This document shows positions 25,989 to 58,397 of a DNA stretch of 64,000 bases, in pieces; positions within the stretch are counted from its first letter, which is position 1, and every line of letters starts with the position of its first letter. The stretch is from Ensifer adhaerens. Its GTDB lineage: Bacteria > Pseudomonadota > Alphaproteobacteria > Rhizobiales > Rhizobiaceae. The stretch is taken from contig NZ_PNFP01000010.1 in NCBI RefSeq assembly GCF_002940685.1, positions 248,001-312,000 on the forward strand, written 5' to 3'. The notes below the pieces were generated by a model that was not told the origin of the DNA, did no database searches, and worked only from the letters and a program-made list of their open reading frames with translations. The position numbers and the translations under genes are program-made.

Positions 25989-27332
25989 ATGTTGCGAACC
26001 CTCACGCTGTTGCTTGTGTTGATCTCGTTCTTCGCGTTTCCAGCTTCGCCGCGGGCCGAAAACGATCGCGTCGCCTTGGTGCTGCATGTCAACGGCGCCA
26101 TCGGTCCGGCGACCGCCGAATATGTGCGGCGCGGCCTGACAAGGGCGGAGCAGCGCCGCCTTCCACTGGTCATCCTGCAGATGGATACGCCCGGCGGTCT
26201 CGACACCTCGATGCGCGAGATCATCCGCGCGATCCTTGGCTCCCCCGTGCCCGTTGCCAGCTATGTCGCGCCGAGCGGGGCGCGGGCGGCGAGCGCCGGC
26301 ACCTATATCCTCTATGCCAGCCACGTGGCCGCCATGGCGCCGGGAACCAATCTCGGGGCGGCGACGCCGATTGCGATCGGCGGCGACATGTTCGGCCCGG
26401 GTAAGGACGGCGATACCGGCAAGGACGGCGGCAAACAACCGCCGGCGCAAAGCGCCGCCGAGGCGAAGCTTGTCAATGATGCCGTGGCCTATATCCGCGG
26501 GCTGGCGGAGTTGCGCGGGCGCAACGTCGATTGGGCCGAAAAAGCGGTGCGCGAGGCCGCAAGCCTTTCGGCCGAAGCAGCGATCCGTGAGAAGGTCGTC
26601 GATTTCACTGCAGCGGATGTCGCCGATCTCCTGAAACAGGCGAACGGCAGGACGGTGCGCGTCGGGCAGCACGACGTCGCGCTCGATACGACAGGGCTTG
26701 TCGCCGAAGACTTCGTGCCCGACTGGCGCACCCGGCTTCTGTCGGTGATCACCGATCCCAACATCGCGGTGATCCTGATGATGATCGGCATTTACGGCCT
26801 GATCTTCGAGTTCCTGTCACCGGGGTCGGTTGCGCCGGGCACCGTCGGCGGCATCTGCCTGCTGCTCGGGCTTTATGCGCTCTCGGTGCTGCCCGTCAGC
26901 TACGCCGGCATCGGCCTGATCCTGCTCGGGATCGGATTGATGGTCGCCGAGGCGCATTCGCCAACCTTCGGCGTGCTCGGCGCCGGCGGCAGCATTGCGC
27001 TCGTGCTTGGCGCCGCAATCCTCTTCGACACGGATACGCCGGGCCTTGAGGTCTCCTGGTCCGTGCTGGCGACGCTTGCCGCCGCAAGCCTCGGCTTCAG
27101 CCTGCTCGTCGCGCGCCTCGCCTTCAGTTCACGCCATCATGCGGTGGTGACCGGCGGAGAACAGATGATCGGCCTTGCCGGCAAGGTCGAGAGCTGGACG
27201 GGGGCGGCCGGCTACGTAATTGCCCATGGCGAGCGCTGGCAGGCCGTCAGTGCGGAGACGCTGTCGAAGGGCGAGGCTGTAAAGGTCATCGGGCGGAACG
27301 GACTGACGCTCGAAGTGATCCGCGACGGGTAG
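25989..27332 (+). CDS. nfeD: NfeD-family membrane serine protease
   Basis: The 447-residue protein is a long-form NfeD: signal peptide or anchor (residues 1-23), a ClpP-class protease domain (about 25-220), about four to five membrane helices (about 240-370) and a C-terminal OB-fold NfeD domain (about 385-447). The catalytic serine is S102 in GARAASAGT, and K160 in [13 protein letters not shown] is the likely general base. Known relatives cleave stomatin-like partners, and a slipin gene follows 40 bp downstream. The pair is thought to act in membrane-protein quality control. The name comes from nodule formation efficiency in rhizobia. Confidence 0.92.
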
Positions 27333-27372
27333 AAGCCGGAGCGGCGTGGACGAGCGGAATGGAGGAATGATC

Positions 27373-28158
27373 ATGGACATGTTCGGGAGCCTTGCTCCTT
27401 TTGCCGCGTTGCTGGTGCTTATCATTCTCGTCATCGCCTATTCGATCCGCATTTTGCGCGAATACGAACGCGGCGTGGTCTTCACGCTCGGCCGTTTCAC
27501 CGGGGTCAAGGGGCCCGGCCTGATTCTCCTCGTTCCCTATGTCCAGCAGATGGTGCGGGTCGATCTCCGTACCCGTGTGCTGGATGTGCCGAGCCAGGAC
27601 GTCATCTCCCATGACAACGTGTCCGTGCGTGTCAGCGCCGTCATCTATTTCCGGGTGATCGACGCTGAGAAGTCGACGATCCAGGTCGAGGATTTCATGA
27701 TGGCGACCAGCCAGCTGGCGCAGACGACGCTGCGCTCTGTGCTCGGCAAACACGACCTCGACGAGATGCTGGCCGAGCGCGACCGGCTGAACGAGGACAT
27801 CCAGAAGATCCTCGACAGCCAGACGGACGCCTGGGGCATCAAGGTCGCAACCGTTGAAATCAAGCATGTCGACATCAATGAGAGCATGATCCGCGCGATC
27901 GCCCGGCAGGCTGAAGCCGAGCGCGAGCGGCGCGCCAAGGTGATCAATGCCGAAGGCGAACAGCAGGCGGCCGCAAAGCTGCTCGAGGCCGCCGAAATCC
28001 TGTCGCAGCAGCCCCAGGCCATGCAATTGCGTTATCTCAGCACGCTCAACGTCATTGCCGGCGAGAAGAACTCGACCATCGTCTTCCCGTTCCCGATGGA
28101 AATCGGCGGGCTCTTCGGCCTCAAGGCCGACAAGCCCGCCGGTGAGCCGCAGGGCTGA
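27373..28158 (+). CDS. Slipin / stomatin-like SPFH-domain protein
   Basis: The 261-residue protein has an N-terminal membrane anchor (residues about 5-25), the SPFH/band 7 domain ([14 protein letters not shown] through about residue 190) and an Ala/Glu-rich coiled segment [30 protein letters not shown] chose the ATG at 27373 because GGAGG ends seven bases before it; an ATG two codons earlier is too close. The C-terminal hydrophobic [13 protein letters not shown] resembles the segment cleaved by NfeD proteases in archaeal stomatin. It abuts the convergent phosphatase gene with no gap. Confidence 0.92.
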
Positions 28159-28968
28159 TCAGGCCGCCTTGTCGAGCCTGGCGACTTTCAGCAGGTCGTC
28201 GACAGCACCGGGTGCGGCCGCCACGACCGGCGCCCAGTCGGTGAGAGCCTCGCCGCGCACCGGAAAGGGCAAGGTCCAGCCACCGGCCTCGTTCACCAGG
28301 CAATAGCCGCCAAGGCAATCCCAGGCATGCATGTAGGGCTCGTAATATCCGACGAGCCGGCCGGCGGCGACATAGGCGATCATCAGCGCGCCGGAGCCGT
28401 TGCGCATGAAGTTGCCGCCATTCGAAAGCAGACGCTCGACGATCGCGCCCATCTCGCCGGGTTTCACCTTGTCGTTGGCGCCGAGCCCGGTGACGGCGTT
28501 GCGGATCGTGCGCGTGCCGTCGAGGCGAAGCGGTTTTCCGTTCAGCGTCGCGCCCCGGCCGGTTGCCGCTGCATAGGTTTCCTCGTGGCAGGGTGCGTGG
28601 ATGACGCCGATCACCGGCTTTTCCGCATGCACGACGGCGATCGAGACGCACCAGTTCGGCATGCCGTTGACGAAGGGCGTGGTGCCGTCGATCGGGTCGA
28701 GCACCCAGGTGAAGCCGGACGTGCCGGCAAGGAGACCATGCTCTTCGCCAAGCACGCCATCGTCAGGAAAGGCGGCCGCAATCTTGTCGCGGATCAGGGT
28801 CTCGACGTTGCGGTCGGCGATCGACACGACGTCGTGGGCATCGCGCTTGGTTTCGATGACGAGCGTGTCCCGCTTCAGGAAATAATCATAGGCGACCCGG
28901 CCGGCCTCCTCGGCCATGGATTTGGCAAGCGCGAACCGGGCGTCGAGGCCGGCAATTTCAGCAGTCAT
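28159..28968 (-). CDS. Inositol monophosphatase-family sugar phosphatase
   Basis: The 269-residue magnesium-dependent phosphatase has the family metal sites: E75-E76 in LGEEHG, D91-P-I-D94-G-T in WVLDPIDGTTPF, and W216-D217 in HAWDCLGG. The last site reads WDCLGG in place of the common WDxAAG. It is the final gene of the minus-strand operon with two binding proteins, a fused permease and an ATPase, 32 bp after the ATPase stop. This suggests that it dephosphorylates the imported solute (inference). The ATG at 28968 has AAGGAC upstream. Confidence 0.9.
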   Translation of the reverse strand: MTAEIAGLDARFALAKSMAEEAGRVAYDYFLKRDTLVIETKRDAHDVVSIADRNVETLIRDKIAAAFPDDGVLGEEHGLLAGTSGFTWVLDPIDGTTPFVNGMPNWCVSIAVVHAEKPVIGVIHAPCHEETYAAATGRGATLNGKPLRLDGTRTIRNAVTGLGANDKVKPGEMGAIVERLLSNGGNFMRNGSGALMIAYVAAGRLVGYYEPYMHAWDCLGGYCLVNEAGGWTLPFPVRGEALTDWAPVVAAAPGAVDDLLKVARLDKAA

Positions 28969-29000
28969 GCAAGTGTCCTTCTCGTATCCAGCTATAAAAA

Positions 29001-30074
29001 TCATCCGTCAATCAAAGCGAGGCCGCGGTTGCGAAAGCCGATGGCGACCTCTGTGGCTGGAGATAACATTTCCTCGACCGCCTGATCGACAACAAACAGG
29101 AGGCCCGCCGGCGTTTCGACTTCGTATTCGACGTGGCCGCCGAGATAGGCGGCGCTGCTGATCGTGCCGGCAAGGGCAGCCCCCTTGGCCGGCGTCAGCG
29201 TCACCGCGTTCGGTCTTACGGCCAGTTTCGACGGGCCGGGTCGGGCGCCCTTGGAGGGCAGGCGATGCTCGAGGCCGCCGATGCGGATCGTCGCCTGGCC
29301 GGCGTCGCTTGCCGTCACCTCGCAGGGCAGCACGTTGGCCTCGCCCATGAAATCGGCGATGAAGGTTGAGGCCGGCTGCTCGTAGAGGTCGCGCGGTGCG
29401 CCTTGCTGGGCGATCGCACCATCCTTCATGACGATGATGCGATCGGAAACGGCAAGCGCCTCGTCCTGGTCGTGGGTGACGTAGACGGCGGTGAAGCCGA
29501 GCCGCTGCTGCAGTTCGCGGATCTCGGTGCGCACCCGGCGGCGCAGGCGCGCATCGAGGTTGGAGAGCGGTTCGTCGAGCAGCAGCACCTGTGGTTCGAG
29601 CACCAGCGCCCGGGCAACCGCCACACGCTGCTGCTGGCCACCCGAGAGCTCGGCTGGAAGTCGCTGGCCGAGGCCGCCGAGACCGACGAGCTGCAGGCCC
29701 TCTTCGGCGCGCTCACGCGCCTCCTTCTTCTTGATGCCGGAGGATTCGAGCCCATAGGCGACGTTGTCGAGTGCCGACATGTGCGGGAAAAGCGCGTAGG
29801 ACTGGAACACCATGGAGACGTCGCGCTCGTTGGCCGGCAGCATGGTGACGTCCTTGCCGCCGATGAGGATCCGGCCGGCGGAAGGATGCTCGAGCCCGGC
29901 CAGCATGCGCAGTGTCGTCGTCTTGCCGCACCCGGAAGGGCCGAGCAGGGTCACCAGCGTACCGGGTTCAATGGTCAGCGACAGGTCGTGGATGGCGGTG
30001 AAGGCGCCGAACTGCTTGCGCACGTTCTGGAAAACGACCGAGCCGGTGCGCGGAGTTTGGGTTTGGGTGCTCAT
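29001..30074 (-). CDS. ABC transporter ATP-binding protein (FbpC/AfuC/PotA-like)
   Basis: The 357-residue ATPase has Walker A GPSGCGKTT, Q-loop FQSYALFP, signature LSGGQQQR, Walker [12 protein letters not shown] and THDQDEALAVSD, with a TOBE domain at the C-terminus. It belongs to the ferric/spermidine/sugar-phosphate branch. Its ATG overlaps the permease stop as ATGA (30071-30074). It energises the fused permease encoded at 30071-32308. Confidence 0.93.
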   Translation of the reverse strand: MSTQTQTPRTGSVVFQNVRKQFGAFTAIHDLSLTIEPGTLVTLLGPSGCGKTTTLRMLAGLEHPSAGRILIGGKDVTMLPANERDVSMVFQSYALFPHMSALDNVAYGLESSGIKKKEARERAEEGLQLVGLGGLGQRLPAELSGGQQQRVAVARALVLEPQVLLLDEPLSNLDARLRRRVRTEIRELQQRLGFTAVYVTHDQDEALAVSDRIIVMKDGAIAQQGAPRDLYEQPASTFIADFMGEANVLPCEVTASDAGQATIRIGGLEHRLPSKGARPGPSKLAVRPNAVTLTPAKGAALAGTISSAAYLGGHVEYEVETPAGLLFVVDQAVEEMLSPATEVAIGFRNRGLALIDG

Positions 30075-32308
30075 GCGGTTTTCTCCTGGGAGATGGTGGT
30101 GGCGGCCGGGCGAGCGGGTGCGGCACCGAGAACGCGGTTTTCCCGCCGCAGGCGGCGCTCGCCGACGAGGAGTTGCAGGCCGGTGATGACGGTGATCATC
30201 ACCAGGATGAGGGCGGAGGAGTAGGCAATCGCCACGCCGAACTCGCCGTTCTCGACAAGGCCGACGATATAGGCGGTGGCCATGTTGTATTCGGCGCTGA
30301 CGAGGAAGACGACGGCGCTGATCGAAGTGATCGCCCGGACGAAGGAATAGACGAGTGCTGCGACGATCGCCGGCCTGAGCAGCGGCAGGATGACCTTGCG
30401 CAAGGTGCGGAAGCTCGTTGCCCGAAGCGTCAGCGACGCTTCGTCGAGGCTCTTGTCGAGCTGGCTCATCGCCGCGATGCCGCCGCGCACGCCGACCGGC
30501 ATGTTGCGGAAGACGAAGCAGGCGACGAGGATCAGCGCCGTGCCGGTCATTTCGAGCGGCGGCAGGTTGAAGGCGATGATGTAGCTGATGCCGATGACCG
30601 TGCCGGGAATGGCAAAGCTCAGCATCAGCGCGAACTCGAAGACGTCACGGCCGGCAAAACGCTGGCGCACGATGAGATAGGCGGTGAGCAGGCCGACCAT
30701 AGCGGTCAGTGGCGCTGCGATCAGCGAGATCTCCATGGTCGTCCAGAACGAGTTCCAGGCAACGCCGGTCCAGGCGATCGCTCCGTCGGCAAAGGAGACG
30801 GAGAAGGCCTTGGCGTAGTGGTCGAAGGTCAGCGAGTTGTCGAGACCCCAGGTCTTCACGAAGCCGCCGAAGAGGATCATGCCGTAGACGACGACGGTGA
30901 AGACCATCCAGGGGATGACGACCGCATGTACCGCGATCGAAATGGAGCGAGGCAGCGCGCTGTGGGCGCCGGAATCGCCCTTGCCGGTCACGGTCGAATA
31001 GTTCTTGCCGGCGAGCCAGTAGCGTTGCGCCAGGAAGGCGGTGAGCGTGAAGCAGAGCAGGATGATGGCGAGAACTGCCGCGCGGGACGGATCGTTCTGC
31101 GCGCCGACGACGGCGAAGAAGATCTCGGTCGAAAGCACCCCATGGCTGCCGCCGAGCACCAGCGGGTTGCCGAAATCGGCCATGCTTTCGATGAAGCCGA
31201 TCAAAAAGGCGTTGGCGAGGCCAGGCTTCATCAGCGGCAGCGAGACGGTCCAGAAGGTGCGCCAGCGGTCCGCCCTGAGCGTCTGCGATGCCTCTTCCAT
31301 CGAGGGGCTGACGCCTTCGACGACGCCGATCAGCACCAGGAAGGAGATCGGCGTGAAGGAAAGGACCTGGGCGATCCAGATGCCGGTGAGGCCATAGAGC
31401 CAGCGTCCGGGTTCGACGCCGAAGGCATCGGAGAGAAACTCGGTGACGACGCCGGCGCGACCGAAGAGCAGGGTGAGCGCTAGGCCGATGACGAAGGGCG
31501 GCGTGATGATCGGCAGCACCGTCAAGAGCCGCATGCCCTTCTTGAAGGGAAAGCGCGTGCGGGTGGCGACGAGCGCGAAGGCGAGGCCGAGCAGCGTCGA
31601 GCCCAATGCGGTCATCAGCGCCAGCCACAGGGTGCGCCAGGCGACGCCGCAGCGGCCCTCGCCGACGACGCAGCTCAGGCTCCAGATCGAGGCGTCCTGG
31701 ATGTTGCGGATAAAACCGTCCGGCTTGAACGAGCCGTCGAAATCCTGGACGGAGGCTGCGAACATGCTGCCGACCGGATAGAAGACGAAGACGATGACAA
31801 GGGTCACGAGCAGGGAAATCGCCGCGACGATGAAGGCGTCGCCCTTGAGCACGCCGCGCTCGGCGAGCCCGAAGGCGAACAGAAGAACGAAGGTGAGTGC
31901 CGCAAGGACGGCACCGGCGCCCATCGACGGTTGACCGTCCGAGAGCGGACCGAACAGGGTCTCGCTGATCGTCCAGGTCCAGCCGGAAAAACCGATCGCC
32001 AGCCCTTGCAGGGCGAGGAAAAGGATGCCCGTTGCGCCGGCGACGGCAAGCAGAAGCCCGCGACGGGCCGGGTCGCGGACAAAGCGCGCAGCCGCGCAGA
32101 TGCCGAGCAACGCCAGCGCGACGACCAGCCATGGCCGGCCATGGGCGAAAATCTGCATCAGGCCGGGGGCGACGGCCGGGTCGGATGGGAAATCGGCCAG
32201 CCAGCCGAGCCCGAAGAAACCACCTTCGATGCGATACCAGGGGACAGCCAAGAATGCGGCCAGCCCGAGCCCGAGCGTGAGGTCGAGCCTGCGGTTGCGA
32301 TGTTCCAT
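30071..32308 (-). CDS. Fused two-domain ABC permease (FbpB/AfuB-like)
   Basis: The 745-residue inner-membrane protein contains two permease domains in tandem, each with an EAA loop: EEASQTLRADRWRTFWTV near residue 340 and DEASLTLRATSFRTLRKV near residue 640. An extra N-terminal block of about four hydrophobic segments (residues 10-200) precedes the first domain. Such fusions occur in the ferric-type and AfuB hexose-phosphate permeases. It lies between the binding-protein genes and the ATPase gene. Confidence 0.92.
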   Translation of the reverse strand: MEHRNRRLDLTLGLGLAAFLAVPWYRIEGGFFGLGWLADFPSDPAVAPGLMQIFAHGRPWLVVALALLGICAAARFVRDPARRGLLLAVAGATGILFLALQGLAIGFSGWTWTISETLFGPLSDGQPSMGAGAVLAALTFVLLFAFGLAERGVLKGDAFIVAAISLLVTLVIVFVFYPVGSMFAASVQDFDGSFKPDGFIRNIQDASIWSLSCVVGEGRCGVAWRTLWLALMTALGSTLLGLAFALVATRTRFPFKKGMRLLTVLPIITPPFVIGLALTLLFGRAGVVTEFLSDAFGVEPGRWLYGLTGIWIAQVLSFTPISFLVLIGVVEGVSPSMEEASQTLRADRWRTFWTVSLPLMKPGLANAFLIGFIESMADFGNPLVLGGSHGVLSTEIFFAVVGAQNDPSRAAVLAIILLCFTLTAFLAQRYWLAGKNYSTVTGKGDSGAHSALPRSISIAVHAVVIPWMVFTVVVYGMILFGGFVKTWGLDNSLTFDHYAKAFSVSFADGAIAWTGVAWNSFWTTMEISLIAAPLTAMVGLLTAYLIVRQRFAGRDVFEFALMLSFAIPGTVIGISYIIAFNLPPLEMTGTALILVACFVFRNMPVGVRGGIAAMSQLDKSLDEASLTLRATSFRTLRKVILPLLRPAIVAALVYSFVRAITSISAVVFLVSAEYNMATAYIVGLVENGEFGVAIAYSSALILVMITVITGLQLLVGERRLRRENRVLGAAPARPAATTISQEKTA

Positions 32309-32399
32309 GACGGCCCTCGCGTGATTTGGAATGAAACGATGTGATGTCGCGCCGCTCCGGTCATTGATCGGAGACGGCGAACGGGTGTCGATGCCGGGG

Positions 32400-32436
32400 C
32401 TCAGGCCGGCCGGATCCGTTGTCCGACCGGCTTGAG
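32400..32436 (-). promoter_or_regulatory. Intercistronic hairpin after the transport binding-protein gene
   Basis: A 15-position stem pairs 32400-32414 (CTCAGGCCGGCCGGA) with 32422-32436 (TCCGACCGGCTTGAG), with one G-U pair and one mismatch and a 7-nt loop. It starts 10 nt after the binding-protein stop on the minus strand, matching the position of the hairpins in the other transporter operons. Confidence 0.6.
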
Positions 32437-32446
32437 GCGGTGGCTA

Positions 32447-33472
32447 TCAGTTGGCGCTGGCGCCGACTTCGCGATCCCAGCGCTCGAGCAGCGACTTGCG
32501 CTTCTCGGCGTCACCAAAGGTGGCAAAATCGTAGTCGATCAGCTTGATGTCCTCGAAGCGCGGCGCTTCCTTCGGCACCTCGGCCGACTTGTTGGACGGC
32601 AGCTGGAAGGACTTGGCGTCCTTCATGCGCGACTGCACTTCCGGCTTCAGCGCCCAGTCGTACCAGGCCTTGGCACTGTCGAGGTTCTTGGCGCCGCGCA
32701 CGATCGACATCGAGCCGATCTCGTAGCCGGTGCCTTCGCAAGGCGCGATCGCCTTGACCGGGAAGCCTTCGGCGGTCTGCGATACCGCGTCATGCATGAA
32801 GACGATACCGAGGCCGGCCTCGCCGCGTGCCGCGGCCTTCACCGGCGCGGAACCGGACTTGGTGTATTGCGCGATGTTGCCATTGAGCTTCTTCAGGTAG
32901 TCAAAGGCCTGGTCCTCGCCCATGATCTGTACCAGGGAGGCAAGCGCCGTATAGGCGGTACCCGACGAGTTCGGGTTGGCCATCTGGATCTCGCCCTTGA
33001 GCGAGGCGTCGAGCAGGTCTGCCCAGCACTTCGGCTCCTTCAGGCCCTTCTTGGAGAAGATCTCGGTGTTGTAGCCCCAGCCGAGCGCGCCGGCATAGAT
33101 GCCGACGGTGCGGTAACCGGAACCTTCCGCCTGCTTCTTTGCCCAATCCTGAAGCTGGTCGAGCATCGGCGACTTGTATTCGAGCGTCAGCCCGTCGGAG
33201 GCCGCCTGCAGGTGCGGATCGCCGGTGCCGCCCCACCAGAGGTCGGTCTTCGGGTTGCGCGCCTCGGCGCGGATCTTGGCGTAGGTTTCGCCCGAAGACA
33301 GGCGAACCATGTTGACCTTGATGCCGGTTTCCTTCTGGAAGTCGCCGGTCATCTGTTCGCAGATCACCACGTCGGCCGAGCAGATGAGATTGAGGCTGCC
33401 GGCAGCCTGGGCGGGCAGGGCGGCAAGCGCCGTGCCGGCAAAGAGCATGAGGGAAAGCGTCGTTGTTTTCAT
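32447..33472 (-). CDS. ABC transporter periplasmic binding protein, AfuA/FbpA-like (first paralogue)
   Basis: The 341-residue protein has a signal peptide (MKTTTLSLMLFAGTALAALPAQA). Motifs shared with the neighbouring paralogue are DLWWGGTGDPHLQAA, GIYAGALGWGYN, NPNSSGTAYTALASLVQ, APVKAAARGE, MHDAV and APCEGTGYEIG. The conserved iron-binding tyrosine pair of FbpA is not visible in the expected YY form, which argues against ferric iron as ligand. AGGAGG lies eight bases before the ATG. It precedes the permease gene and is probably the transport subunit. Confidence 0.88.
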   Translation of the reverse strand: MKTTTLSLMLFAGTALAALPAQAAGSLNLICSADVVICEQMTGDFQKETGIKVNMVRLSSGETYAKIRAEARNPKTDLWWGGTGDPHLQAASDGLTLEYKSPMLDQLQDWAKKQAEGSGYRTVGIYAGALGWGYNTEIFSKKGLKEPKCWADLLDASLKGEIQMANPNSSGTAYTALASLVQIMGEDQAFDYLKKLNGNIAQYTKSGSAPVKAAARGEAGLGIVFMHDAVSQTAEGFPVKAIAPCEGTGYEIGSMSIVRGAKNLDSAKAWYDWALKPEVQSRMKDAKSFQLPSNKSAEVPKEAPRFEDIKLIDYDFATFGDAEKRKSLLERWDREVGASAN

Positions 33473-33507
33473 TGGGGCATCCTCCTGTTGCCTGTGTGAA
33501 ACTTGGG

Positions 33508-33560
33508 CGTGAACGGGCATGGCGCGGCCATCGGCCTGCCCGCCGGGCGGCACGTTCACG
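33508..33560 (-). promoter_or_regulatory. Branched hairpin between the two binding-protein genes
   Basis: An outer stem CGTGAACG (33508-33515) with CGTTCACG (33553-33560) encloses a short inner stem ATGGC (33519-33523) with GCCAT (33527-33531). It lies in the 128-bp spacer between the two paralogous genes and may tune their relative expression. Confidence 0.45.
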
Positions 33561-33600
33561 ATTTCGGAATTTCGGGTTCTTCCAGCTTGCTGCGGAGCTT

Positions 33601-34623
33601 TCAGTTCGTGGCGGCGATCTCCGCGTCGAACCGTTTGAGCAATCGACTTCGTTCGTCCGGCGAACCGAAGGTGGCGAAGTCGAAATCGACCATCTTGATC
33701 AGCGAGATGTCGGGCGCGCCGGGCGGCAGGTCGGCGCGGGCGTTGGATGGGACCTGGTTCTGGCCGGCGGCCGCACCCGTGGCCTGGCCTTCCGGAGTGA
33801 GCGCGAAATCGACGAAGTTTTTGGCGTTTTCCAGATGGCGCGCGCCCTTGACGATGCTGACGGCGCCGATTTCGTAGCCGGTTCCTTCGCACGGCGCGAC
33901 GATGACGAGCGGAGAGCCGGCCTGCTTCTGCGTGACCGCGTCATGCATGAAGGAAATGCCGATCAGGGTTTCCCCGCGCGCTGCCGCCTTGACCGGCGCC
34001 GAGCCGGCCGTGGTGTACTGGTCGATGTTGCGGTTGAGCGCCGCCACGAACCGGAAGGCCTCGTCTTCGCCGAAGAGCTGCACCAGCGTCGCAAGCGTGG
34101 TGAAGGCGGTCCCGGACGAGTTCGGATTGCCGCTGCGGATGCGGCCGCGATAGGCGCCGTCGGCGAGATCCTTCCAGCAGGTCGGAGCTGGCAGCTTCAG
34201 CGCACGCAGAAGGTCCGAATTGTAGGCAAAGCCCAGCGCTCCGGCATAGATGCCCGCCGAGCGGCCACCGGATATGGCGAAGAAATTCTGCGCCCAGGGC
34301 AGCATGTCGCGCTCATGCGCCGGGCGGTAGGGCTGAAGCAGGTTTTCCGATCCGGCCTGTAGATGGGTGTCGCCGGTCCCGCCCCACCACACATCGACGG
34401 TCGGGGCGTCCTTTTCGGTGCGGATCTGGGTGAGGATATCGCCGTTGCTCTTTCGGGTCATGGCGACCTCGATGCCGGACTTCGCCTCGAAGGCGGCCTT
34501 CATCGTCGCGCACCATGCTTCGTCGACACCGCACAATACGGTGAGCGCCGGTGCCGCCATGCCTGACGTGGCGGCGCACAGCCACAGGGCTACGCCCGCG
34601 CCGATAGCGGTGATGCCTCTCAC
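33601..34623 (-). CDS. ABC transporter periplasmic binding protein, AfuA/FbpA-like (second paralogue)
   Basis: The 340-residue protein is a paralogue of the one at 32447-33472, sharing VWWGGTGDTHLQAG, GIYAGALGFAYN, NPNSSGTAFTTLATLVQ, SAPVKAAARGET and APCEGTGYEIG. The start is best taken as GTG at 34623 because GGGAGG precedes it; the product then begins with a clear signal peptide (MRGITAIGAGVALWLCAATSGMAA). It is adjacent and divergent to a two-component system. In PgtABC a binding protein of this general class assists signalling, so this copy may present ligand to the sensor kinase (inference). Confidence 0.87.
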   Translation of the reverse strand: MRGITAIGAGVALWLCAATSGMAAPALTVLCGVDEAWCATMKAAFEAKSGIEVAMTRKSNGDILTQIRTEKDAPTVDVWWGGTGDTHLQAGSENLLQPYRPAHERDMLPWAQNFFAISGGRSAGIYAGALGFAYNSDLLRALKLPAPTCWKDLADGAYRGRIRSGNPNSSGTAFTTLATLVQLFGEDEAFRFVAALNRNIDQYTTAGSAPVKAAARGETLIGISFMHDAVTQKQAGSPLVIVAPCEGTGYEIGAVSIVKGARHLENAKNFVDFALTPEGQATGAAAGQNQVPSNARADLPPGAPDISLIKMVDFDFATFGSPDERSRLLKRFDAEIAATN

Positions 34624-34707
34624 GATGTCCTCCCATTTGGAGCGCTGCCGCCCCAATCTCCACAGTCAGGATGTCGGTATTCCCTGCCACTCGCAATCGA
34701 AGAATGG

Positions 34708-34772
34708 TTACCGTTCTTACAGTCCCGGTGCGGCTTTGCCGTTTCAAGATTACAAAGATTACAAATGTGACA
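34708..34772. promoter_or_regulatory. TTAC direct repeats, candidate response-regulator sites
   Basis: TTAC occurs at 34708 and 34717, and AAGATTACA is repeated exactly at 34746-34754 and 34755-34763, followed by the degenerate AATGTGACA. Within each cluster the period is 9 bp, and the clusters are 42 bp apart (four helical turns). The block lies between the divergent binding-protein and response-regulator genes, where an OmpR-type regulator would bind. Confidence 0.65.
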
Positions 34773-34840
34773 ACGCGGATAACGCGAGCCGCTTTGATCA
34801 TTAAGCCAGCGCCGCCTATGATGGCGGCGGGAGGACCTGC

Positions 34841-35581
34841 ATGCTGAGTGAGAGAATACGGATTCTGATCGTCGAGGACGATCCGGACATGGCGGAACTC
34901 GTTTCCGATCTGGTGGAGGCCGAAGGCTGGATGCCGCTGACGGCGCCTTCGGCGGAGGCGGCCGCCGTCGTCCTTGAGCGGGAAACGGTGCACCTGGTGC
35001 TCGTCGACCACAACCTGCCCGGAACTTCGGGCCGGACCTTTGCGCAGCGACTGCGGGCGCGCACCAATATCGGCATCGTCATGGTCACGGCGGCCGGCAG
35101 TGCGGCCGACCGGGTGCTGGGCCTGGAGACGGCGGCCGACGACTATGTCGTCAAGCCGTTCGAGCCGATCGAGCTGACGGCCCGGATCAAGGCGGTGCTT
35201 CGACGCACCTACCCGTCGCTGAAGCCGGAGCGGGAGGCAGAGCGCGCGCATGAGCCCGCCGCGCTGAAGCTCGGCGACTGGTCGATCGACCTCAAGAGCC
35301 GGCGCGCGGTCTGCCTTTCCGACGCGACCAGGTCACTCACCAGCGCCGAGTTCGCGCTGCTCGAAATCCTCGCGGAAACGCCGAATGCGCCGGTCAGCCG
35401 CGCGCATATCCTGGACCGGCTGGGGGCCGAAAGCGATCGCTACATCGACCGCAACGTCGATGTGCTCGTGCTGCGCCTGCGGCGCAAGATCGAGCGCAAT
35501 CCGGACCTGCCGCGCCACATCAAGACGCGGCGCGGCAAGGGCTATGTGCTGGATACCGACGACGGCGAGGCCCGGCCGTGA
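34841..35581 (+). CDS. OmpR-family response regulator
   Basis: The 246-residue protein has a receiver domain (residues about 6-118) with acidic pocket E12-D13-D14, phospho-acceptor D56 in VLVDHNLPG and K105 in DDYVVKPFEP, then a winged-helix output domain (about 140-240) ending KTRRGKGYVLD. It is coupled to the histidine kinase gene by a GTGA overlap and is divergent from the transporter operon, its likely target. Confidence 0.94.
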   Translation: MLSERIRILIVEDDPDMAELVSDLVEAEGWMPLTAPSAEAAAVVLERETVHLVLVDHNLPGTSGRTFAQRLRARTNIGIVMVTAAGSAADRVLGLETAADDYVVKPFEPIELTARIKAVLRRTYPSLKPEREAERAHEPAALKLGDWSIDLKSRRAVCLSDATRSLTSAEFALLEILAETPNAPVSRAHILDRLGAESDRYIDRNVDVLVLRLRRKIERNPDLPRHIKTRRGKGYVLDTDDGEARP

Positions 35582-37671
35582 TCAGCCGCCCGTTCCTTTC
35601 GTCGATTGCCTTCCGCCTGCCGTTTGCGATCGTTTTCATCTGCGTGCTCGTCTTCAGCCTGGCAACGGTTGCCGTATTCGGGCTGCAAAGGGCGCGTGAC
35701 GAAATGGCGGCCTACGGGCTGCAGGCCTTTTCCAGCCTCGCCAAGGCCTCCCTGGTTTCGCGCCAGGTTTCCGATCTCGTTTCGAGCGCGCCGTTCCTGA
35801 TGAATGCGACCTCGCCCTATCGGGTATCGAGCGAAAGCCGCTCGGTCGTCGCGCAGGTCGACGCCCTGCTTCAGACCATGGCGCCGGAGACCGGCAAGAC
35901 GGCGGTCGAGGGCTTTGCCAGCGCCCACATCGTCGAGTTGCTGGACGCGATCCGCACACAGACGGTGACGCTCGCGGCCGACGCCGATTCGGCTCAGCAG
36001 TACAAGGCCGATGCGGCAGCAGCCCTCGGAGAGATCGCCACCGGCAACGGCATCGCGGACGCCGGGATTCGCCAGAGCCTCAACGCGATCGTGCAATCGG
36101 CATCCAATTCCGACAGCCTGTTCCAGCTCGGCGAACTGCGCCGCCGCTACGTTGCCGTAACGACGCCCCGGCTGGCGCCCGCCGAGCCGGATAGCCGGAT
36201 TTCGGCAGCCGAGCTGACGCCCTATGAACGGGTGTTCGAAGCGCAGACCCACTATCTTCTGGAAATGTTCGCCATCCGCGCCGCGGTGGCGCGGCTGCAC
36301 ACGGTCTCGCGCGATCTTTCCCACGCCACGGAAACACAAAGCGAGGCCGTCGCCCGCGGGCTTAACGAGGATCTCGCCTCGACCTCCGACGCATTGAGCC
36401 GCCTGCTCGTCATCGTCGCGGTCTCCGCGTTGCTTGTGCTCGTCATGGCGATCTTCTCCATCCGCTCCGTCATGCGGGTGTCGCGCGGCATCGTCTCGCT
36501 CTCCAAGGGCATGAACGCGCTCGCGCAGGGGCGCCGTGACGTCGATACGCCGAGCTACAAGGGCACGGAAACGGAATTCCTCCGGCTGCTCGAAGCCTTC
36601 AGCGCGTTCCGCGAAAGTGTCGAGCGCGTATCGCGGCTGCGCCGCACCGCCGAGGCGGCGGCGCGCACGATTCGCTCGACCTTCCGCAACATGAACGAGG
36701 GCATCGCGCTCTTCGACCCGGGCGGCAGGCCGATCACGATGAACCGGCGCGTCATGGAGCTCGTCGGCTGGCCGGGCTCGGCGCGGAAGCTGCCGCTGCG
36801 CCGTTTCGTCAGCCCGATGCCGGAGATCGACCCGTCCCTCCTGCCCGCCGATCATGACGCGGGATCGCTCGACGACAGGCTCGTGCTGCGCCATCGATCC
36901 GACGCGGGTCGGGTGACAGAGGTCTCCCTGTCGCGGCAGCCGGATCGCGGCATCGTGCTTCTGGCGCGGGACGTGACGGAGATCGACCGGCAGGAGGCCG
37001 AGGCGGCCAAGGCGCAGCGGCTGGACGGGATCATGCGCATGACGCACCAGGTCAGCCACGAGGTGGGCAACATGATCGGCATCATCACCGGCAGCCTCGG
37101 GCTGCTGGAGCGCGAAACAGGCTTCAGCGACCGGCAGAAAAGGCACATTGCCCGCATCCGCAAGGCGGCCGATCGCGGGCGCTCGCTGGCCTCGAGCATG
37201 CTGTCCGTCGGCAGCCAGCATCCGCTGCAGCCGGGTGCGCTCGAAATCGGCGCGGTGCTGCGCGGCATGGCCGACGTGCTGGAAATCGCCGTGGGCGAAA
37301 AATGCCGGCTCGTCTTCGAGATCGCCGATGGCTTGCCCAACGTGCATCTCGATGCCGCCCTTTTCGAGCAGGCAATCCTCAATCTCTGCCTCAACGCCGC
37401 CGCGGCCATGCCTCTTGGCGGAACCATCCTGATCCGCGCCGGCAGCCTCGAGGCCGATGTCGTCGTCTCCGTGACGGATGCGGGGATCGGCATGTCGCCG
37501 GAGGCGGTGGACAAGGCGTTCGAGCCCTATTTCACCACGCGCGACGAGGAGGGCGGCGCCGGCCTCGGTCTGGCCGTCGTCTATGGCTTCGTCCGCCAAA
37601 GCGGCGGCGATGCCCGAATAGTCTCGCAACCGGGGCGCGGAACGACGGTCGAACTCGTCTTTCCGCGCTGA
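35578..37671 (+). CDS. Sensor histidine kinase with large periplasmic domain
   Basis: The 697-residue kinase starts with GTG overlapping the regulator stop (GTGA). It has a first membrane helix (residues about 12-37), a long mostly helical periplasmic sensor (about 38-272), a second helix (about 274-297), a HAMP-like segment, a PAS-like region (about 355-465), and a kinase core. The phospho-acceptor is H494 in SHEVGNMIGIITGSLGLLE, which resembles the HDFNN-type box; N-box NLCLNAAAAM, G1 DAGIGM and G2 GAGLGLAVVYG complete the ATPase domain. The large sensor domain would allow contact with a periplasmic binding protein, as in PgtB-type systems. Confidence 0.92.
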   Translation: MISRPFLSSIAFRLPFAIVFICVLVFSLATVAVFGLQRARDEMAAYGLQAFSSLAKASLVSRQVSDLVSSAPFLMNATSPYRVSSESRSVVAQVDALLQTMAPETGKTAVEGFASAHIVELLDAIRTQTVTLAADADSAQQYKADAAAALGEIATGNGIADAGIRQSLNAIVQSASNSDSLFQLGELRRRYVAVTTPRLAPAEPDSRISAAELTPYERVFEAQTHYLLEMFAIRAAVARLHTVSRDLSHATETQSEAVARGLNEDLASTSDALSRLLVIVAVSALLVLVMAIFSIRSVMRVSRGIVSLSKGMNALAQGRRDVDTPSYKGTETEFLRLLEAFSAFRESVERVSRLRRTAEAAARTIRSTFRNMNEGIALFDPGGRPITMNRRVMELVGWPGSARKLPLRRFVSPMPEIDPSLLPADHDAGSLDDRLVLRHRSDAGRVTEVSLSRQPDRGIVLLARDVTEIDRQEAEAAKAQRLDGIMRMTHQVSHEVGNMIGIITGSLGLLERETGFSDRQKRHIARIRKAADRGRSLASSMLSVGSQHPLQPGALEIGAVLRGMADVLEIAVGEKCRLVFEIADGLPNVHLDAALFEQAILNLCLNAAAAMPLGGTILIRAGSLEADVVVSVTDAGIGMSPEAVDKAFEPYFTTRDEEGGAGLGLAVVYGFVRQSGGDARIVSQPGRGTTVELVFPR

Positions 37672-39592: not shown

Positions 39593-40288
39593 ATGGTCGA
39601 TAAGGGTCTCATCCTTCTGGCGGAGGACGAGCCGGAGATTGCGCAGATCCTGGACGCCTATCTCGTTCGCGACGGTTTCCGGACGGTGCGTGCCGCCGAT
39701 GGCGAAACGGCTCTGACCCATCATGCGGTGTTGTCGCCGGACCTGGTGCTGCTGGACGTTCGCATGCCGAAGCTCGATGGTTTCGAGGTGCTCGCCCGCC
39801 TCAGGCGCGAGGGCAACACGCCGGTCATCATGACCACGGCGTTGGCAGAGGACCTCGATCGGCTGACCGGGCTGAGGCTTGGCGCCGATGATTACGTGGT
39901 CAAGCCGTTCAATCCGCAGGAGGTGGTGGCGCGCGTGAACGCCGTGCTGCGTCGCACCCGCGCCGGTGCCGGCGCCACCGTGCTTCGTTTCGAGAATGTC
40001 GAAGTCGATCTCGACGCCCATGTCGCTTTCGTCGAAAAGAGCGGCAAGCGGCAATCGGTGCCGCTGACGCTGAGCGAGTTCCGAATTCTCGCCCACATGA
40101 TCCGCCGGCCGACGCATGCCTTCGATCGTGCCGATATCCTCGACGCCTGCCTGCCCGACAGCGATGCGCTGGCGCGCACGGTCGACACCCACATCGCCAA
40201 CCTCAGGCGCAAGCTGGAGGATCTCGGTGCCTGCGGGTTCTTCAGCGCGGTGCGTGGGGTTGGTTATCGCTTCGTGGAGCCGAGATGA
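39593..40288 (+). CDS. OmpR-family response regulator (BaeR/AdeR-like)
   Basis: The 231-residue protein has a receiver domain with E11-D12-E13, phospho-acceptor D55 in LVLLDVRMPKLDGF and the DDYVVKPFNPQEV lysine, then a winged helix ending AVRGVGYRFVEPR. AAGGAG lies just before the ATG. It overlaps its kinase gene as ATGA. The sequence style is that of BaeR/AdeR regulators of envelope stress and efflux, but no efflux genes follow. Confidence 0.93.
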   Translation: MVDKGLILLAEDEPEIAQILDAYLVRDGFRTVRAADGETALTHHAVLSPDLVLLDVRMPKLDGFEVLARLRREGNTPVIMTTALAEDLDRLTGLRLGADDYVVKPFNPQEVVARVNAVLRRTRAGAGATVLRFENVEVDLDAHVAFVEKSGKRQSVPLTLSEFRILAHMIRRPTHAFDRADILDACLPDSDALARTVDTHIANLRRKLEDLGACGFFSAVRGVGYRFVEPR

Positions 40289-41457
40289 AAGCCAGTCTGT
40301 CGCGCCTTCCGCTGGGTATCCTGACCGCCTTCGTGATTGTCACCCTGCTCGTCTTCAGCGTCGTCATCGTTTACGGCGGCGTGAACTCCATGGAGGGGCA
40401 GCTTGAGGCCCGGATGCTGGAGAGGATGCCGGAAAAGGCGGCGCAGGCGTACAAGGATCTCAACAGCGGCAAGGTGCCGACGCCGGACGCGCTGCAGGCC
40501 CTGCTGGCCAGCACGAAGGAGCTTGAGGAGTGGGGAAACTGGGAAGTCGACAAGCTCATTCTCGGCTTCGGGGGTATCGCCGTCGCCTTCTGCGGGCTCG
40601 TCGGCTACTGGCTGGCACGCAAGATCAGCCGCCCGCTTGAGGTGCTGGCAAGGGCGACGCAGGACCTCAGGGCCGGCGACTTCGCGGTGCGTGTCGGCTC
40701 GATCCGCAAGGGGGCCAAGGAGGTGGCTACTCTCGTGAAAACATTTGATGAACTGGCGGCCGAGCTTGAAAGCATGGAAAGCAGGCTGCGCTTCAACACG
40801 ATGGCCGTGGCGCACGAACTGCGCACGCCGCTGACGATCCTTCAGGGCAATCTCCAGGGCATGGCCGACGGCGTCTTCCCGCTGGAGCAGGAGAGGGTGC
40901 GGCAACTGCTGCTGCAGGTGGAGGGGCTTTCCGCCCTGGTGGAGGATCTGCGCACCTTGTCGCTCGCCGCCGGCCAGAAGCTGGTCACCCAACGCCAGCC
41001 CGTGGATCTCGCCGTCGAGGCGACGCAGGTCCTCGGCGCGTCGCGGGCCCTGCTCGGCTCCGTCGGCATGTCGGTGGAACTGGCGCTTCAGCCGGTACGA
41101 ATTTCCGGGGATTCGCAGCGCCTGCGCCAGGCGCTTCTGGCGCTGATCGAAAATGCGACCCGCTATGCGGCAAGCGGCGGCGTCTTGCGCTGCGAAACCG
41201 GGCGGCGAGGCGCCGACGAGGCTTTTGTCCGGATACTGGACCGCGGCCCCGGGCTACCGGACGATGTCTCGACCTATTCGATCGACCTGTTCTGGCGCGG
41301 CGATGCCTCGCGGTCGCGCGCGACAGGCGGTACCGGCCTTGGCCTTTCCGTAGTCCAGGCGATCGCGAAGGCGCATAGCGGACGGCTGGAGTTTGCCTCG
41401 CGCGCCGGCGGCGGCGCCGTGATCACGCTCGTCCTGCCGCGGGAAACCACCGCCTGA
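40285..41457 (+). CDS. Sensor histidine kinase (BaeS/AdeS-like)
   Basis: The 390-residue kinase has two membrane helices (about 13-33 and 92-112) around a short periplasmic loop, a HAMP domain (about 113-165), phospho-acceptor H177 in MAVAHELRTPLTILQGNL, N-box ALIENATRYA, DRGPGL and GGTGLGLSVVQAI. The sensor loop of about 58 residues is small, so it probably senses the membrane or envelope rather than a soluble ligand. It is cotranscribed with the regulator. Confidence 0.93.
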   Translation: MKASLSRLPLGILTAFVIVTLLVFSVVIVYGGVNSMEGQLEARMLERMPEKAAQAYKDLNSGKVPTPDALQALLASTKELEEWGNWEVDKLILGFGGIAVAFCGLVGYWLARKISRPLEVLARATQDLRAGDFAVRVGSIRKGAKEVATLVKTFDELAAELESMESRLRFNTMAVAHELRTPLTILQGNLQGMADGVFPLEQERVRQLLLQVEGLSALVEDLRTLSLAAGQKLVTQRQPVDLAVEATQVLGASRALLGSVGMSVELALQPVRISGDSQRLRQALLALIENATRYAASGGVLRCETGRRGADEAFVRILDRGPGLPDDVSTYSIDLFWRGDASRSRATGGTGLGLSVVQAIAKAHSGRLEFASRAGGGAVITLVLPRETTA

Positions 41458-56219: not shown

Positions 56220-58397
56220 ATGAGCAAGATCGGATCGGTTGCCGCTTGGGCGTTTTTCTCGCTTTGTGTGATCGCGGTCATCACGCTGCCGGTAAACCTC
56301 CAGACGCAGCTCATCGTCAGCGTCTTGATTGTCACCTTCATGGCCGTGCTCAAGCTTGCCAATGCCGGTGGCCGCTGGCGGCTGATCGCGCTTGCCTTCG
56401 GCACGGCGATCGTGCTGCGTTATGTCTACTGGCGCACGACGAGCACGCTGCCGCCGCTCAACCAGCTGGAAAACTTCATCCCGGGCTTTCTGCTCTACCT
56501 CGCTGAAATGTACAGCGTGATGATGCTGTCGCTCAGCCTGTTCGTCGTGGCGATGCCGTTGCCGCCGCGCAAGTCGAGCTCCATCTCCGAGGGCAAATTT
56601 CCGAAGGTCGATGTCTTCGTTCCGTCCTACAACGAGGACGCGGGCCTGCTGGCAAACACGCTCGCGGCGGCCAAGGCGATGGACTATCCCGCCGACAAGC
56701 TGACGGTCTGGCTGCTCGACGACGGCGGCACGCTGCAGAAGCGCAACTCGGCAAACCTCGTCGAAGCGCAACGCGCGTCGGCCCGCAATGCCGAGCTGCA
56801 GGCGCTCTGCGACGATCTCGGCGTGCGCTATCTGACGCGCGAGCGCAACGAGCACGCCAAGGCCGGCAACCTCAACAATGGCATGCTGCATTCCGATGGT
56901 GAACTGATCGCGGTCTTCGACGCCGACCACGCGCCGGCGCGCGATTTCCTGCTGGAGACCGTCGGCTATTTCGAGCAGGACCCGAAACTGTTCCTGGTGC
57001 AGACGCCGCACTTCTTCCTCAACCCGGACCCGCTCGAGCGCAATTTGCGCACCTTCGAGAAGATGCCGAGCGAGAACGAGATGTTCTACGGCATCATCCA
57101 GCGCGGTCTCGACAAGTGGAATGCTGCCTTCTTCTGCGGCTCGGCCGCCGTTCTGCGGCGCAAGGCGCTCGAGGATACCGAAGGCTTCAGCGGCATGAGC
57201 ATTACCGAGGACTGCGAAACGGCGCTGGCGCTGCACGGGCGCGGCTGGAACAGCATCTATGTCGATCGCCCACTGATCGCCGGCCTGCAGCCGGCCACCT
57301 TCGCGAGCTTCATCGGCCAGCGCAGCCGCTGGGCGCAGGGCATGATGCAGATCCTGCTGTTCCGGTTTCCGCTGTTCAAGGGCGGCCTGTCGATCCCGCA
57401 ACGGCTTTGCTACATGTCCTCGACGCTGTTCTGGCTGTTCCCGATCCCGCGCACGATTTTCCTTTTCGCGCCGCTCTTCTATCTGTTCTTCGACCTTGAG
57501 ATCTTCACAGCGTCCGGCGGCGAGTTTCTCGCCTATACGCTGGCCTACATGGTCGTGAACCTGATGATGCAGAACTATCTCTACGGCTCGTTCCGCTGGC
57601 CCTGGATCTCCGAACTCTACGAGTTCGCCCAGACGGTACATCTGCTGCCGGCCGTCATTTCGGTGCTGCTGCGGCCGAGCCGGCCGACCTTCAAGGTGAC
57701 GGCCAAGGATGAATCGATCTCGGAAAGCCGGCTTTCCGAGATCGGCCGGCCTTTCTTCGTGATCTTCGCGGTGCTTTTCGTCGCCCTGCTCATGACCGTC
57801 TACCGGGTCTACACCGAACCCTACAAGGCAGACGTGACGCTTGTCGTCGGCGGCTGGAATCTTCTGAACCTGATCATGGCCGGCTGTGTGCTCGGCGTCG
57901 TTTCGGAACGGGGCGAACGCGCGGCCTCGCGCCGCGTCAAGGTCAGCCGCCGTTGCGAATTCGGCGTTGCCGATCAATGGTATCCGGCGACGATCGAGGA
58001 CGTTTCCGCGCACGGTGCGCGCGTCCAGGTCTACGGCATCGACGCGTCGACGCTGCCGACCGATACCGAGGGAGGGATCCGCTTCGAGCCCTATAGCGGC
58101 AGCGGCGTCGCCGAAACGCTGCCGGTTGCGATCCGCAACAAGGAGATAGCCGGCGATATCACCATCATGGGCTGCCGCTACCTGCCGCAGGCCGCCCGTC
58201 ATCACAGCCTGGTCGCGGACCTGATCTTTGCCAATTCGCGGCAATGGAGCGAGTTTCAGAGTGCCCGGCGTGGCAATCCGGGCCTGGTGCGCGGAACGTT
58301 CTGGTTCCTTTGGATGGCGCTCTATCAGACCAGCCGCGGCATGATTTATTTCCTTCGCAGCCTGCGTGGCTCCGAGGCGCAGAAGGAGGGCGCTTGA
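56220..58397 (+). CDS. bcsA: Cellulose synthase catalytic subunit BcsA
   Basis: The 725-residue inner-membrane glycosyltransferase polymerises UDP-glucose to beta-1,4-glucan and extrudes it. It has about eight helices and the family 2 motifs: D167-D168-G, D234-A-D236, FFCGS 305-309, T329-E-D331 and Q367-R-S-R-W371. The gating loop FKVTAKDES is at 491-499. The C-terminal PilZ domain retains R571-R572 to R577-R578 and D594-x-S596-x-x-G599, so activation by cyclic di-GMP is expected. It overlaps bcsB by one base (TGATG). Confidence 0.97.
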   Translation: MSKIGSVAAWAFFSLCVIAVITLPVNLQTQLIVSVLIVTFMAVLKLANAGGRWRLIALAFGTAIVLRYVYWRTTSTLPPLNQLENFIPGFLLYLAEMYSVMMLSLSLFVVAMPLPPRKSSSISEGKFPKVDVFVPSYNEDAGLLANTLAAAKAMDYPADKLTVWLLDDGGTLQKRNSANLVEAQRASARNAELQALCDDLGVRYLTRERNEHAKAGNLNNGMLHSDGELIAVFDADHAPARDFLLETVGYFEQDPKLFLVQTPHFFLNPDPLERNLRTFEKMPSENEMFYGIIQRGLDKWNAAFFCGSAAVLRRKALEDTEGFSGMSITEDCETALALHGRGWNSIYVDRPLIAGLQPATFASFIGQRSRWAQGMMQILLFRFPLFKGGLSIPQRLCYMSSTLFWLFPIPRTIFLFAPLFYLFFDLEIFTASGGEFLAYTLAYMVVNLMMQNYLYGSFRWPWISELYEFAQTVHLLPAVISVLLRPSRPTFKVTAKDESISESRLSEIGRPFFVIFAVLFVALLMTVYRVYTEPYKADVTLVVGGWNLLNLIMAGCVLGVVSERGERAASRRVKVSRRCEFGVADQWYPATIEDVSAHGARVQVYGIDASTLPTDTEGGIRFEPYSGSGVAETLPVAIRNKEIAGDITIMGCRYLPQAARHHSLVADLIFANSRQWSEFQSARRGNPGLVRGTFWFLWMALYQTSRGMIYFLRSLRGSEAQKEGA

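Follow-up and report, generated by a model that had tools for sequence, protein, structure and literature searches.

A putative organophosphate uptake and sensing locus of Ensifer adhaerens with a likely composite origin

Why should an ATP-binding cassette (ABC) importer be encoded with two related binding proteins and next to a sensor kinase? The question is raised by a seven-gene locus in the 64,000-nucleotide stretch of Ensifer adhaerens DNA analysed here (the window; contig NZ_PNFP01000010.1, positions 248,001 to 312,000). The genes A2-A1-B-C-IMPase, transcribed in this order from the minus strand, encode two binding proteins that are 49% identical (A2 and A1), a fused permease (B), an ATPase (C) and an enzyme of the inositol-monophosphatase family (IMPase). 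The genes for an OmpR-type regulator and a kinase, which overlap by 4 bases, lie on the plus strand, divergent from A2 across a shared region of 217 bp. This gene set, as proposed in the initial annotation, was recovered in full (Table 1) and two start sites were mended: A2 most likely begins at a GTG preceded by GGAGGAC, as read from the sequence, and the IMPase at an ATG preceded by AAGGAC, rather than at 29004. A2, A1, B, the regulator and the kinase occur together in 72 loci besides the window, no two of which have an identical permease and many of which were found via A2; because of this recurrence, the arrangement is not a product of chance. We consider it probable that this is a composite uptake-and-sensing locus, in which A1BC would import a phosphorylated compound, the IMPase would dephosphorylate it, and A2, captured in one module with the regulator and the kinase, would report to the kinase and so lead to activation by the regulator.

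The ancestry of the binding proteins was examined in a tree of 68 sequences, taken from 17 of the 73 two-protein loci (the window and 16 hand-picked for diversity), all six loci that combine a kinase with a single binding protein, 10 of the 19 other close-permease loci and 16 of the 40 outgroup loci (random picks). A1 was found on one side with the other kinase-free binding proteins (support 99), and A2 on the other with four of the six single-protein kinase-linked ones (94); the two most distant kinase-linked proteins, those of loci L152 and L154, were placed next to both sides. A local duplication giving A1 and A2 was rejected by the approximately unbiased (AU) test (p = 0.00076), and grouping A2 with all six single-protein kinase-linked proteins was not rejected (p = 0.83), with a better likelihood than the free tree. 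In the permease tree, the set of which contains long branches, two-protein permeases grouped with those of other close loci, mostly of the LacI type (100), and their grouping with single-protein kinase-linked permeases was rejected (p = 5.9e-11). Since A2 groups with kinase-linked binding proteins while the permease groups with LacI-type operons, the locus seems to combine parts of two ABC systems, its binding proteins apparently stemming from two older branches and not from a local duplication. The simplest history would be the capture, by an A1BC-IMPase operon, of an A2-regulator-kinase module without that module's permease. The module would have come from a self-contained kinase-linked ABC system that lost or left behind its permease and ATPase, and would have taken the place held by a LacI-type gene in the sister operons. 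One genome (G142) carries both a LacI-type A1BC-IMPase operon (L114) and, separately, a kinase-linked A2BC system (L156). Parent systems, merged system and a genome with both unfused parents are at hand for experiments.

The division of labour between A1 and A2 was assessed from the company that each keeps. For this, 199 genomes of the family were searched for the permease (E 1e-120), the kinase N-terminus (E 1e-10) and A2-type proteins (at least 66% identity, a line drawn after the gap down to 53% had been seen). Only these searches are free of the bias that arises from finding two-protein loci through A2. The permease was detected in 65 genomes. The kinase N-terminus was detected in 15, exactly those that also have the A2-type protein; the kinases of L152 and L154, whose full-length identity is 28-29%, missed the cut-off. 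All 66 other permease loci of these genomes were examined for their neighbours. The 32 close permeases (at least 67% identity, window included) were accompanied by A2, A1 and the kinase pair in 14 cases, by A1 and a divergent LacI-type gene in another 14, and by A1 only in four. Among the 35 distant ones, three had one binding protein and a kinase pair (L152, L154, L156), three had a LacI-type gene and 29 had neither.

A wider collection of 149 loci (L013-L161) was reduced to 137, the window standing outside them, by dropping four without a permease open reading frame (ORF) of more than 600 amino acids (L054, split over two frames, L081, L087 and L090) and eight with an exactly repeated permease. 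Here all 72 two-protein loci, many of them found via A2, combine A2 with the kinase, and A2 is missing from each of the 19 kinase-free close-permease loci; L095, one of the two-protein loci, has a neighbouring LacI-type gene as well. The A2 gene is strictly linked to the kinase gene, the two being divergent neighbours in the loci examined. Over the 72 loci, A2 distances followed those of the regulator and the kinase (correlations of 0.89-0.94) more closely than those of A1, B and C (0.63-0.76). The partial correlations of A2 were 0.45 with the regulator, 0.31 with the periplasmic part of the kinase, 0.51 with the kinase core, 0.23 with B and 0.05 with A1. The proposal of the initial annotation that one paralogue feeds the permease and the other reports to the kinase is supported by this co-occurrence, as kinase-free LacI-type operons carry A1 alone; A1 would be the feeder and A2 the reporter.

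The main competing explanation is that A1 and A2 alike supply permease B, their phosphorylated ligands being different or overlapping, and that the kinase senses its signal directly, like helical domains of the McpS type. It is favoured by the pocket kept in both A1 and A2 (see below), by the fact that A2-side proteins alone serve the permeases of the six single-protein kinase loci, and by a sensor model that fits McpS as well as TorS. The strict association of A2 with the kinase, in genomes, in loci and in distances, speaks against it, and we regard this explanation as rather unlikely.

A2 also departs from its relatives in sequence. At columns at least 95% conserved in other binding proteins, a reference pool that includes the six single-protein kinase-linked ones, A2 differs at 18 of 117 such columns but A1 at only 1 of 112, and the single-protein kinase-linked proteins keep most of the 18 residues concerned. 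We lean slightly towards a further step, a conversion from transporter to receptor. A complete kinase-linked ABC importer would have merged with a second sugar-phosphate importer and lost its own permease and ATPase. Its binding protein would have remained solely to read the ligand for a TorS-like kinase, as a subunit of it, and the result would be an organophosphate receptor with a single operator in this genome. These loci would then illustrate how a binding protein can turn into a dedicated receptor subunit.

Several observations weigh against the composite uptake-and-sensing reading. At 130 columns conserved in kinase-free binding proteins and A1, the single-protein kinase-linked proteins keep 85.5% and A2 78.8%, so that part of the departure of A2 is plain divergence. 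Physical linkage alone could account for much of the distance correlation between A2 and the kinase. Neighbourhood is no proof of function either, as adjoining binding protein and kinase were reported not always to be linked in the work on AgtS and AruS, which also favours direct sensing by the kinase. Finally, nine of the 72 two-protein loci have neither an IMPase nor a HAD enzyme; a phosphatase is not obligatory, and these exceptions show that the dephosphorylation step would be dispensable or done elsewhere.

The kinase was described in the initial annotation as having a large periplasmic domain, and about 230 residues (approximately 40-268) do lie between two hydrophobic segments (5-39 and 269-302). 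Of its Pfam domains, HATPase_c is clear, PAS and HisKA are weak. The model of the periplasmic sensor is all-helical, with TorS/McpS as best match at a score near the helical-bundle background. The TorS sensor family PF21689 gave no match in the window kinase and one in 42 relatives (E 0.086); a PDB profile search with the kinase N-terminus returned nothing at E 10. Profile-profile comparison of the sensor with TorS gave P 2.4e-5, which suggests distant kinship only.

As to the ligand, the best PDB matches of A1 and A2 were the AfuA structures with glucose-6-phosphate, 4r72-4r75 (E 3.9e-89 and 2e-84), followed for both by 8x1a and P5PA. Identity to AfuA over 313 aligned residues is 46% for A1 and 43% for A2. 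AfuA has been reported to bind glucose-6-phosphate, fructose-6-phosphate and sedoheptulose-7-phosphate with nanomolar affinity, and mutagenesis identified H205, D206 and E229 as essential. This sugar triad is kept in 81 of 81 A1 and 81 of 81 A2 sequences from two-protein loci (window and near-copies included). The phosphate-site residues S37, G38, T60, S148, G149, T150 and G185 are likewise kept in A1 and A2, save position 37 in A2, where Thr was found in 76, Asn in four (the window among them) and Ser in one of the 81; in A1 this position is Ser in all but one of the 81. The pocket comparison with AfuA thus bears out the phosphorylated solute of the initial annotation: with triad and most phosphate ligands kept in both proteins, a phosphate monoester is more likely than iron, and the pocket sequences give good support to a hydroxyl-bearing phosphate monoester as the ligand class. 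Position 11 is Asp in 100 of 100 A1 (close-permease loci) and 80 of 81 A2 where AfuA has Thr, so the exact ligand preferred may differ from that of AfuA. P5PA, a pyridoxal phosphate binder, is without D206 and E229, and A1 and A2 are not of its type. The sole exception at positions 205/206 among the relatives is L154, in which Ala-Asn replaces His205-Asp206 and whose ligand probably differs; this distant kinase-linked relative is the second locus of a genome of the window's genus (G147), with an alkaline phosphatase gene behind the ATPase.

Iron import, the function under which databases label these genes and under which they are commonly annotated in the Rhizobiaceae records examined, was considered in the light of the same pocket. 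The top NCBIfam model of ATPase C is a ferric one, at a score under its cut-off. FbpA-type ferric binding proteins hold Fe3+ by an adjacent tyrosine pair. Such a pair is absent from A1 and A2 of the window, where the equivalents of AfuA 205/206 are His-Asp, and from all but 2 of 231 relatives. In favour of iron, the afuA3 gene of Rhizobium leguminosarum, a possible orthologue, was reported to be up in bean bacteroids taken as iron-limited. AfuA itself proved to carry sugar phosphates and not iron, its sugar and phosphate ligands are kept here, and phosphatase genes adjoin these transporters. An iron importer was rejected on the pocket residues and the absent Tyr-Tyr pair, and is extremely improbable. 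Transport of 2-aminoethylphosphonate or another phosphonate is hinted at by the best NCBIfam names, PhnS2 and PhnU2, and by a score of ATPase C close to PhnT2. However, A1 (196 bits) and A2 (193 bits) missed the PhnS2 equivalog cut-off of 393, on which ground this substrate was rejected, their pocket matches that of AfuA, and from family knowledge the phosphate-ester phosphatase next door would not cleave a C-P bond. This possibility is very improbable. If the phosphate-ester assignment is true, many rhizobia can take up phosphorylated sugars, or similar phosphate esters that come from plants or soil, and some of these bacteria have a dedicated sensor for them.

The pairing of the transporter with a phosphatase, also proposed initially, was found to be widespread. 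The IMPase matched Pfam Inositol_P (PF00459) at 183 bits against a cut-off of 27, with GEE, DPxDGT and WDxxG/A motifs present. Of the 137 loci, 110 have an IMPase-family gene at most 7 kb from the permease (88 on the same strand, 22 on the opposite one), and the catalytic motifs are intact in 109 of 109 full-length relatives. Two-protein loci (n = 72) have an IMPase in 62 cases and a HAD enzyme in nine, eight of these with both. The nine with neither belong mostly to Agrobacterium or close relatives, and the contig breaks off within one of them (L038). Behind the ATPase of R. leguminosarum WSM1325 stands a HAD phosphatase in place of the IMPase. These neighbours favour a phosphorylated substrate. 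Downstream genes of the 27 IMPase-less loci were compared with Pfam (17 genes from 15 loci, and one from L117, where an IMPase is present). Suggestive ones were the alkaline phosphatase of L154, an RpiR-SIS regulator (L076) and a HAD enzyme by annotation (L095). The first tells little about the window ligand, since the L154 binding protein lacks H205 and D206. Unsuggestive ones were LysR, aspartokinase-like, PEP-utilising enzyme, FdhD, DUF3095, GNAT, NADH:flavin oxidoreductase, PhoU-like and Pit genes, and four without family. The PhoU-like protein and Pit-type phosphate transporter follow the related operon of a Mesorhizobium (L083:12753-14401).

The gap between A2 and the regulator was aligned for 79 sequences (72 two-protein loci, six single-protein kinase loci and the window). 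Two conserved blocks of TTAC/TGAC half-sites with 9-bp spacing were observed, shared only partly by the single-protein loci. The longer block, with TKACA repeats, occurs once in the genome at up to 3 mismatches, and its degenerate form was absent from 100 window shuffles, which suggests a regulator dedicated to this locus. A promoter-like site before the regulator sits in a stretch conserved across the aligned gaps. Control by PhoB was rejected; no convincing Pho box was found, a single 3-mismatch match at 28962 being below the 2.68 expected.

In the composite uptake-and-sensing reading, A1 would capture a phosphorylated sugar-like compound (a hexose phosphate, a heptose phosphate or some phosphate monoester like them) and hand it to B and C, and the IMPase would strip the phosphate in the cytoplasm. 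A2 would bind the same or a similar ligand and signal this to the kinase at its periplasmic domain. Once phosphorylated by the kinase, the regulator would act at the TKACA repeats between the divergent genes, in their common promoter region, and turn on A2-A1-B-C-IMPase; we infer this direction of control and the induction that it implies.

Parts of this scheme have precedents. AfuABC, the hexose/heptose phosphate importer of Actinobacillus pleuropneumoniae and Citrobacter rodentium, has the same type of binding protein, sugar triad and ABC gene set, to which the window locus adds a second binding protein, a kinase-regulator pair and a phosphatase. In Staphylococcus aureus the binding protein HptA has been described to report glucose-6-phosphate to the kinase HptS; its structures 6lki/6lkg (HptA name via 6LKK) matched A1 at E 1.4e-9. 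A2 and HptA belong to one broad family, and A2 would likewise inform a kinase of a sugar phosphate, but HptASR drives the UhpT antiporter whereas the presumed target in the window is an ABC importer that has a separate binding protein, and the OmpR-type regulator and TorS/McpS-like sensor are unlike those of HptASR. CuaD-CuaSR with CuaABC of Ruminiclostridium cellulolyticum, a Clostridium relative, has been reported to use one binding protein for the transporter and a second for the kinase, with cellobiose as ligand; the likeness noted here is one of roles. In comparison with TorT-TorS of enterobacteria and vibrios, A2 is AfuA-type and not TorT, and the sensor kinship is suggestive only. A binding protein dedicated to a kinase is thus already known (HptA-HptS, CuaD-CuaS), and what is new is the composite architecture in rhizobia. 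In agreement with the initial annotation, no description of the five-plus-two set in rhizobia was found in open-licence PubMed Central papers.

The LacI-type A1BC-IMPase operon of Sinorhizobium meliloti and other rhizobia has the same transporter and phosphatase as the window, with a LacI-type regulator where the window has A2, regulator and kinase. S. meliloti, whose genome carries this operon, has been reported to grow on glucose-6-phosphate; no report that the operon is needed for this growth came to light in the literature searched. SMb20362, SMb20363 and SMb20365, taken from gene names and positions to be this operon, are tabulated with negative values in a study of PhaR. The LacI-type A1BC-IMPase operon was also observed on Pantoea plasmids (L164, L165) and the permease on an Acinetobacter venetianus plasmid record (H89), the permeases being about 70-71% identical to that of the window, which suggests transfer between alpha- and gammaproteobacteria.

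Table 1. Positions of genes and candidate regulatory sites of the locus in the window
Feature	Position	Strand	Remarks
A2, AfuA-type binding protein	33601..34623	-	kinase-linked branch; proposed kinase co-receptor; GTG start at 34623, 340 amino acids
A1, AfuA-type binding protein	32447..33472	-	proposed permease feeder
B, fused permease	30071..32308	-	745 amino acids; two BPD_transp_1 stretches (Pfam)
C, ABC ATPase	29001..30074	-	ABC_tran and TOBE_2 (Pfam)
IMPase, inositol-monophosphatase-family enzyme	28159..about 28968	-	GEE, DPIDGT and WDxxG motifs; ATG start most likely at 28968, ORF open to 29004
OmpR-type response regulator	34841..35581	+	Response_reg and Trans_reg_C (Pfam)
Sensor histidine kinase	35578..37671	+	GTG start; transmembrane segment (TM) 1, periplasmic part, TM2, PAS, HisKA, HATPase
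Candidate regulator site	34750..34772	+	three TKACA repeats, 9-bp spacing; conserved between A2 and regulator genes among two-protein loci
Second conserved block	34707..34721	+	GTTACCGTTCTTACA; two half-sites, 9-bp spacing
Promoter-like site before regulator	34794-34822	+	9 of 12 consensus bases; one found against 0.5 in shuffles

Both binding proteins matched SBP_bac_6/8 in Pfam. The closest whole-length matches among plasmid records were replicons of Ensifer sp. PDNC004 and E. adhaerens (90.8-90.9% DNA identity), and among species genomes, that of E. adhaerens L18 carries A2 at 97%. No known RNA element at the locus reached its gathering score, and two terminator-like matches were found against 2.2 in shuffles. 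GC-rich inverted repeats, seen by eye only, lie in the gaps behind both binding-protein genes (32309-32446 and 33473-33600); such repeats are often found where a binding protein is produced in excess over the permease. The operon end is adjoined by genes for an NfeD-type membrane protein and then a Band_7/SPFH (stomatin-like) protein (25989-28158, plus strand). About 2 kb past the kinase a second pair of OmpR-type regulator and HAMP kinase was observed (39593-41457, plus strand), and cellulose-synthase-like genes occupy 56220-63947 (plus strand), encoding a glycosyltransferase 2 with a PilZ domain, BcsB, another ORF and a TPR protein.

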